DNA of 64,000 nt from Flavobacteriales bacterium (GTDB lineage: Bacteria > Bacteroidota > Bacteroidia > CAIKAF01). Each line of letters opens with the position of its first letter. The first letter of the stretch is position 1. The stretch spans positions 132,957 through 196,956 of the forward strand of contig JAOABX010000001.1 in assembly GCA_026418175.1 (NCBI GenBank), in the 5' to 3' direction. A program made the position numbers and the translations under genes. Under the pieces are notes generated by a model. That model saw only the letters and a program-made list of their open reading frames with translations. It was not told the origin of the DNA and made no database searches. Of the stretch, positions 32,286 to 33,305 are shown in pieces.

Positions 32286-32466
32286 AAATAAAAAAACCCG
32301 AGGTGCCGGTAGAGTTCTCTTTTCCCTTCCTTTTTAACTTGGTTTTTATTGATTTTATCAGGGTTGGTTTTATGATAAAATCATTAAGGTTAGTTTAAGA
32401 AAAAACTACCGGACCTGCAGGTTTCCTCCCACTATGAAAACGATTGTAAGAACGGTTTTAAATTTT
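32286..32466 (-). ncRNA. Candidate structured RNA with 3' U-tract
   Basis: The 341-nt gap between the LytTR and asparaginase genes contains paired elements read on the minus strand. The outer arms 32406-32424 and 32294-32312 pair through a 7-bp CCGGTAG helix and an outer AAACC/GGGTT helix with a small internal loop. Nested inside is a perfect 10-bp hairpin (32373-32382 with 32351-32360, 12-nt loop). The 3' arm ends in a T6 run (32291-32296). A -7-like TACATTTG at 32473-32480 would start transcription near 32466, giving an RNA of about 180 nt. The layout (closing stem, asymmetric purine-rich bubble, terminal hairpin) loosely recalls 6S RNA, but I cannot assign a family. An asparaginase leader is the alternative. 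Confidence 0.45.
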
Positions 32467-32552
32467 ACATCACAAATGTAGCTCAACCAATTTTTTAGTT
32501 TTTACACTAATTATTAAACCTTTAATTCGAATTAGTAAACCGGTAAAAATTC

Positions 32553-33305
32553 TTAGAATTTATTAAGGATCATTAAAAAGTTATCTCTATAATTTTTTGA
32601 AAGTGGTACGTTAGAGTTATCTGAAAGAATAAGGTATCCACCGTCTGCTTTTTGATATTGAACCACATGGTCAATATTTACCAAGTGTGATTGATGTACT
32701 CTAACAAAGCCATGGTCGCAAAGCATTTCATCATATTCTTTTAGCGTTTTGCTAATAAGAAATTCCCGATTTCGTGTAAGATAAAAGGTAGTATAATTAC
32801 TTTGTGATTGTAAGCGGATAATTTCATCCAATGCAAAAAACTGAATGCCTCCTTGAATGGGAAGCCCTATTCTTCGTAACTTCTTATCTTTTGTATCGCT
32901 GAGGTTATTGAGTAGAAAATCCAAACGATGGTTCAGTTTATTCCCTTTAATTCGTTCTTCAGCGCGCTGAACAGCTTCTTTCAACTCTTCAATATCAATG
33001 GGTTTTAATAGATAATCAATAGCAGAAAATTTGAATGCCTTAATGGCATAATGATTAAATGCAGTGGTAAATATTATCTCTGTTGAAGTGTTTTTAATGG
33101 CTTCTAAAACATCAAACCCACTTCCTTCACCAATTTCAATATCCAAAAAAATCAAATCTGGATGGGTAGATTGAATTAATTCAACCGCCTCTGTTACAGA
33201 TTCTGCACTTCCGATAATTTGTACTTGAGGGCAATAATTGCTGAGAAAAAAAGTAAGGTTTTCTCTAGCATTTAGCTCGTCGTCTACTATAACTGCTCTA
33301 ATCAT
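32553..33305 (-). CDS. LytTR-family response regulator
   Basis: A 250-residue regulator with an N-terminal receiver domain (acidic pair in VDDE, phosphoacceptor Asp55 in LIFLDIEIGEG, Lys in LLKPI) and a C-terminal LytTR DNA-binding domain (about 145-250, 'EIIRLQSQSNYTTFYL...FVRVHQSHLVN'). Such regulators usually pair with a LytS/YehU-like histidine kinase. None is adjacent, so it is an orphan in this window. Targets are unknown. Confidence 0.94.
   Translation of the reverse strand: MIRAVIVDDELNARENLTFFLSNYCPQVQIIGSAESVTEAVELIQSTHPDLIFLDIEIGEGSGFDVLEAIKNTSTEIIFTTAFNHYAIKAFKFSAIDYLLKPIDIEELKEAVQRAEERIKGNKLNHRLDFLLNNLSDTKDKKLRRIGLPIQGGIQFFALDEIIRLQSQSNYTTFYLTRNREFLISKTLKEYDEMLCDHGFVRVHQSHLVNIDHVVQYQKADGGYLILSDNSNVPLSKNYRDNFLMILNKF

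Follow-up and report, generated by a model that had tools for sequence, protein, structure and literature searches.

On the minus strand of the window, the 64-kb stretch of a Flavobacteriales genome (G000) that was analyzed here, a structured RNA of about 180 nt lies between a LytTR response regulator gene and an asparaginase gene (Table 1). Homologs in six further genomes, a closing stem (P1) whose arms covary, a conserved promoter block and a constant linkage to the LytTR gene indicate that it is very probably an independent small RNA gene. Control by the neighboring LytTR regulator is quite likely, and on balance we consider the best explanation to be a gene for a trans-acting small RNA which, together with this upstream regulator, makes up one module. 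We infer that the gene is transcribed and that LytTR activates rather than represses it. The RNA may act by pairing over start codons, a step to which we give somewhat less than an even chance. The sequence-only reading of this stretch had proposed either an independent small RNA, with an outline recalling 6S RNA, or an ending element in the asparaginase leader. The first part stands, borne out by conservation, covariation and a promoter block in five of seven genomes; the leader part does not, and the likeness to 6S RNA is one of outline.

Table 1 Features of the small-RNA locus, in window coordinates; the ends of the small RNA were placed from the promoter box and the T-run.
Feature	Position	Strand	Evidence and remarks
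LytTR response regulator gene, 250 aa, receiver and LytTR DNA-binding domain	32553..33305	-	Pfam PF00072 3.4e-21, PF04397 2.8e-18; presumed activator of the small RNA
Direct repeat 1, TACTAATTC	32529..32537	-	Invariant and at fixed distance in 5/7 genomes
Direct repeat 2, TAATAATTA	32508..32516	-	12 nt after repeat 1; 9-12-9 spacing
Bacteroidota -7 box (TAnnTTTG), TACATTTG	32473..32480	-	Exactly 27 nt after repeat 2 in the 5/7 genomes with the box
Small RNA, about 180 nt	32286..32467	-	Fold z -4.42; homologs in 6 further genomes
Motif TTTCATAGTGGGAGGAAACC, proposed pairing region	32420..32439	-	Same in 7/7 carriers except one position, T in G002
Closing stem P1, 5' arm	32406..32424	-	Covariation with 3' arm
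Inner hairpin P2, C-rich loop (AAACCAACCC)	32350..32383	-	Predicted fold of G000; matching one in G002
Closing stem P1, 3' arm	32294..32312	-	Runs into the T-run; covariation with 5' arm
T-run, seven T	32290..32296	-	First three bases shared with P1 3' arm

The complementary arms that the sequence-only reading had placed about 100 nt apart are separated by 93 nt, and both the nested perfect hairpin (P2, TGATTTTATCA/TGATAAAATCA), there given as 10 bp and here 11 bp long, and the U-tract after the 3' arm were recovered. Positions 32286-32466 of the minus strand had a predicted folding energy of -48.9 kcal/mol, compared to -31.9 +/- 3.85 kcal/mol for shuffled versions, and none of 200 shuffles folded as well. 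Among the carriers, the z-scores were -4.27 (G000), -3.22 (G001), -2.90 (G002), -0.66 (G006), -1.34 (G010), -2.17 (G012) and -1.98 (G013); predicted thermodynamics alone provide weak support for structure in G006 and G010. P1 was part of the minimum-energy fold in every carrier. P2 was not in that of G001 and was different in other genera, and the interior of the RNA varies between genera, the distance from the motif to the end of the stem ranging from 114 to 158 nt in the seven genomes. In a model-based alignment, 104 of 105 P1 cells pair (99.0%), two-sided changes occur at 3 of 15 pairs (17 of 500 shuffles as high), and the covariation score of P1 is 0.210 versus 0.124 +/- 0.025 for shuffled alignments (1 of 500 as high), with slid versions of the stem reaching at most 0.070; this alignment was fitted to the P1 structure, and its counts are biased towards it. 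A hand-made alignment of the six distinct sequences, likewise biased, had 102 of 106 P1 cells paired and two-sided changes at 5 of 18 pairs (32 of 5000 shuffles as high). MAFFT alignments were left out of these counts because they misaligned the 3' arms, mainly those of G012 and G013. The structure is real, and P1 covaries; compensatory changes in the arms were what the sequence-only reading had proposed to look for.

That reading had also held that the arrangement is neither a simple terminator nor a coding region and had been unable to match it to a known riboswitch class. The one listed open reading frame of at least 50 codons that overlaps the stretch encodes 55 aa on the opposite strand. 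Coding on that strand was considered and rejected: the frame opening at the ATG in the complement of the motif spans 15 codons in G000, 8 in G002 and 4 in G006 (by eye) and is not conserved. A search with the Rfam covariance models identified no family over its gathering score in the 64-kb window, and the 12 permissive matches on the small-RNA stretch all fell under their own gathering scores.

Searches with blastn and sequence patterns located the small RNA in seven of the 16 genomes of the window's Flavobacteriales family (G000, G001, G002, G006, G010, G012 and G013, hereafter the carriers). A covariance model built from four carriers (R1) recovered the other three with E-values of 8.4e-10, 5.3e-8 and 5.7e-8; because the stem is long, it also weakly matched the reverse strand of several loci (E 1.9e-4 to 0.14). 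A second model (R2) matched 4 of 295 genomes of the class at E <= 0.1, all in the window's family, and the carriers G001, G006 and G010 were absent from its rows. With up to two mismatches, the motif pattern occurred in 17 of 395 class genomes: the seven carriers at 0 mismatches and ten others, without a matching arm by eye, at 2 mismatches (about 15 for a backward control, our own count from the table). At one mismatch or fewer, the motif also matched in G003, G004 and G009, in contexts that show no such RNA, and at extra places in the carriers. The exact pattern was present in nine stretches of the GTDB 220 collection, six from carriers of the family and three from elsewhere, and in none of the viral contigs. 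As far as these searches reach, the distribution of the small RNA appears narrow. One contig in the collection, JACSSC010000059.1, is titled Candidatus Competibacteraceae, yet its genome is placed in the window's family and its LytTR protein is 78% identical to that of the window; it is probably mis-titled or part of a mixed bin.

The rod with internal loops between closing stem and hairpin resembles that of 6S RNA, and no 6S RNA was found elsewhere in the window genome either. 6S RNA is near-universal within a lineage. The small RNA, by contrast, is missing from nine of the 16 family genomes, is tied to the LytTR gene, and is most conserved in a 5' segment that lies partly beyond the closing stem. 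Furthermore, RF00013 had no match at E <= 10 in the window genome, in a search of limited sensitivity whose control recovered 8 of 14 well-known genomes, and RF01685, also a model of limited sensitivity, had no match in the window genome and none over its cut-off in 60 genomes. It is very unlikely that the small RNA is the 6S RNA of the window's lineage. Sub-threshold matches to RF01685 (6S-Flavo) were seen in other families of the class (G036, E 1.5e-6; G027, 1.1e-3; G024, 4.6e-3), and these are possibly divergent 6S RNAs that score under the Rfam cut-off.

Within the 16 family genomes, a LytTR ortholog at E <= 1e-60 was present in all seven carriers and in none of the nine non-carriers. G003, a genome of the same genus, carries neither the small RNA nor a LytTR ortholog at this threshold; G006 has two further, more distant LytTR paralogs (45% identity). 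In every carrier the small RNA lies directly downstream of the LytTR gene on the same strand, and the order MBL-fold hydrolase, LytTR, small RNA is kept on one strand in all seven, the hydrolase having been checked with Pfam in the window and by eye in the others. Physical linkage alone could explain the co-occurrence of regulator and RNA. The genes that follow are less constant. The asparaginase gene starts about 75 nt downstream of the small RNA in the window and also follows it in G001, as would suit a leader (riboswitch or attenuator) of that gene. However, these are two of the six carriers with a visible next gene, the contig of G010 ending after the small RNA. The next gene is carboxymuconolactone-decarboxylase-like in G002 (by eye), a 401-aa gene to which we gave no name in G006 (by eye) and hydrolase-like in G012 and G013, where it lies on the opposite strand. 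With no constant same-strand gene downstream, we rejected the asparaginase leader on gene order and regard it as extremely improbable.

The sequence-only reading had pointed to an upstream box at the right distance for a transcript of about 180 nt, and TACATTTG does lie at coordinates that fit this length; the direct repeat upstream of it and the motif downstream had gone unreported. The box is found 25-57 nt before the motif in five of the seven carriers (G000, G001, G002, G006 and G010), in which the promoter block is intact, and TAnnTTTG is described as the flavobacterial sigma-A -7 box (PMC9723704). An ungapped 77-nt block from these five genomes has 22 invariant columns, which account for 22 of the 26 columns inside three islands whose spacing is constant (TACTAATTC, 12 nt, TRMTAAWTR, 27 nt, TACATTTG) and for 0 of the 51 outside; the islands were picked by eye and TACATTTG served as the anchor, its 8 columns being invariant by choice, which does not apply to the repeat columns and the spacing. 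Published LytTR sites are described as direct repeats of 9 bp, in most cases with 12 bp between them, that immediately precede the promoter (PMC6193735). In the same five carriers, a pair of 9-bp direct repeats separated by about 12 bp precedes the promoter. Judged by its sequence, the block combines a direct repeat of the LytTR type, with 9-12-9 spacing, and a Bacteroidota -7 box downstream of it. Across the 16 genomes, these five loci alone have the full pattern with no more than one mismatch. When up to three mismatches were allowed, it had 43 matches compared to 28 for the backward control, and the window had one such match, against none in 100 shuffles. Without the box, the repeat pair (up to two mismatches) had 1 match in the window versus 1.33 expected from shuffles, and a 7-of-9 repeat at the same spacing arose in 9-22% of shuffled regions. 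The repeat would therefore not stand out in one sequence, and its weight rests on the spacing conserved across genomes. In G012 and G013, we saw at best a degraded version of the block, faint by eye (TTCTAATAG, 12 nt, TGCTCATTT, then a one-mismatch box 20 nt further off than elsewhere).

The promoter block also bears on whether the structure could instead be a conserved 3' UTR or terminator of the LytTR mRNA, without a transcript of its own. The RNA immediately follows LytTR in the same orientation in all seven carriers, which would suit this reading, as would a T-run directly after the stem, of which G000 and G001 are the only clear cases by eye. But in five of the seven genomes a conserved promoter block separates the LytTR stop codon from the RNA, the invariant motif falls largely outside the stem, and a comparable T-run directly 3' of the stem was not found by eye in G002, G006 and G010. 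G012 and G013 have a distinct terminator-like hairpin that begins about 30 nt further down (by eye). We rejected an intrinsic terminator on the same pattern of stems and T-runs, and a 3' UTR of the LytTR mRNA is unlikely.

Similar repeat-plus-box sites were seen elsewhere in the carriers. Those in G000:C55 (1167, plus strand) and G001:C251 (1187, minus strand), with 2 and 3 mismatches, lie 86 and 65 nt before a secreted-protein-like open reading frame and are a possible further LytTR target, chosen from a list near background level. In G006:C9 and G010:C8, sites with 3 mismatches keep the TACTAACTGAAAC and ATTCTAACTAAG repeats with different sequence between them, 90 and 89 nt before a lipoprotein-like open reading frame; they are possibly a regulon member or a site for a paralogous LytTR. 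L293 and L294 form a weaker third pair of repeat sites. If LytTR does control the small RNA, other direct-repeat promoters before secreted-protein genes would be further regulon members.

The motif lies just 5' of P1 and overlaps it, and within it TTTCATAGTGGGAGGNAACC is identical in the seven carriers. Its complement reads as a start-codon region with ATGAAA, an antisense reading that was noted before any target search. In predicted folds the motif is modestly exposed, TTTCATAGTGG being 52-58% unpaired versus 41-48% for the rest, with GAGG at 92% paired in both G000 and G001. A scan of the seven genomes with a 15-mer of the motif (up to two mismatches) identified one exact second copy, in G002; our own arithmetic puts the expected number of exact copies in all seven genomes combined at about 0.04, and few of these would fall on a start codon. 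The complement of this copy makes up the start region of a gene for a GH25 lysozyme, CTTCCTCCCACTATGAAAAGA (Pfam PF01183, 6.2e-47), and the predicted duplex of G002's own RNA with this mRNA has 16 nt of pairing across the AUG (-28.7 kcal/mol). The target is not conserved as judged by sequence: the complement was not found in the GH25 orthologs of G000, G006 and G010, with start sites uncertain in the latter two, and no GH25 gene was matched at E <= 1e-15 in G001, G012 or G013.

Near matches as a whole were not enriched. The 15-mer scan had 37, including the seven RNAs themselves, compared to 50 for the backward control. Among the 23 examined of the 30 outside the RNA, L145 (GH25) and L152 (lpxB), both in G002, alone put the AUG of a convincing long open reading frame in register; at L165 the AUG is in register for an 87-aa frame opposite a 731-aa open reading frame. 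We put aside lpxB of G002 as a target, a similar match being present in G003, without the RNA. Wobble-tolerant matches numbered 147 in the 16 genomes, including 68 non-self matches in the seven carriers and 72 in the nine non-carriers, and start-region matches of this kind in carriers were not enriched (75 versus 95 for the control). A likely open reading frame start was seen for 7 of the 68 carrier matches and for 2 of the 13 examined among the 72 in non-carriers, and we claim no enrichment. L243, at a secreted-like protein of G006, is a weaker candidate (-27.1 kcal/mol, computed, like the duplex energies other than that of the G002 GH25 match, with the G000 form of the motif). Collectively, these matches provide weak support for targets of the small RNA.

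The small RNA might instead be under LytTR control and bind a protein through the invariant GUGGGAGG, as a sponge or scaffold, with no mRNA pairing. An invariant 20-nt motif in an RNA that has mostly diverged is also compatible with a protein site, and the seven genomes yielded one convincing mRNA match. Two of the GTDB matches outside the family could point the same way: the exact 19-nt pattern occurs in two Bacillales genomes (L115 3604 and L119 5610) just upstream of a gene, named by eye, that is likely rplA, and it may sit in a ribosomal-protein leader. However, the Bacillales stretch is predicted to fold as a small hairpin of its own and not as the long-range stem, and no Rfam family matched it at E <= 1. 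Moreover, by our own arithmetic about 7 chance matches are expected in that collection (257 Gb x 2 / 4^18) versus 3 seen outside the family, and the Bacillales matches are probably chance. The reading as a ribosomal protein L1 mimic, suggested by the rplA matches, was rejected on these same grounds of fold context, Rfam and chance. Binding of a protein in place of mRNA is an unlikely account of how the RNA works.

We return to the module of LytTR regulator and trans-acting RNA. In this model, the active regulator would bind the TACTAATTC-N12-TRMTAAWTR direct repeat and switch on the promoter at TACATTTG, producing an RNA of about 180 nt in the window genome. A 5' part with the invariant UUUCAUAGUGGGAGG would be followed by the long rod closed by P1, and the 5' part would pair across the mRNA start codon (complement CCUCCCACU-AUG-AAA) and block translation, the GH25 lysozyme of G002 being the clearest candidate target. 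LytTR and the small RNA are probably a regulator-plus-small-RNA switch. More tentative, and in our estimate rather less than evenly likely, is the full proposal of a self-contained Bacteroidota module: a dedicated antisense RNA under LytTR control, with an invariant seed made to cover start codons (CCUCCCACU-AUG-AAA). To our knowledge, the regulator is known for few Bacteroidota regulatory RNAs; in this case the sequence itself points to one, through an adjoining gene and a conserved site at a fixed distance from the promoter. Bacteroidota mRNAs are described as lacking Shine-Dalgarno sequences (PMC6847099), and a start-codon seed, if true, would suit a phylum in which masking such a sequence is no option. 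Among the titles and abstracts listed in searches of the open-access literature, none describes a pair of LytTR and small RNA in Bacteroidetes. If the module is real, signaling of the FasX or RNAIII kind, from regulator to RNA to mRNA, would extend to a phylum that uses another promoter code and has no Shine-Dalgarno sequences, and the locus would supply one concrete seed and one concrete candidate target.

Several known systems share parts of this arrangement. In the AgrA-RNAIII system of Staphylococcus, a LytTR regulator switches on a regulatory RNA via a direct repeat; RNAIII, of about 510 nt, is transcribed divergently and encodes a peptide as well. The window RNA, unlike RNAIII, is about 180 nt, lies on the same strand as the LytTR gene and shows no conserved reading frame. 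The direct repeat resembles the sites described for LytTR regulatory system operons, where 9-bp repeats with a 12-bp gap immediately precede the promoter (PMC6193735), but those sites target the regulator's own operon and here the presumed target is the RNA downstream. The half-site also differs, ACTAATT here versus sequences mostly like ACCACTT as described there (PMC6193735). By description, the RNA is like the Rfp sRNAs of Flavobacterium psychrophilum, which are independent RNAs with a median of 176 bp and TAnnTTTG promoters, although the term LytTR is absent from the main text of that report (PMC9723704). The nearest known arrangement is FasA-FasX, and as far as sequence can tell the locus looks like a module of that kind. 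ComE-like regulators are LytTR-type, and FasX is about 200 nt in size. In the FasBCA-FasX system of group A Streptococcus, FasX is described as a small RNA that lies beside a ComE-like response regulator and acts on mRNAs, and the binding site proposed for FasA precedes the promoter of this adjacent small RNA (PMC12675982). In contrast to that system, no kinase genes were seen beside the window locus, the promoter is of the Bacteroidota type and the proposed pairing covers the start codon. The likeness to FasX is one of arrangement: here too, the small RNA gene is adjacent to and co-inherited with the gene of its putative regulator, in seven of seven carriers and none of nine non-carriers.
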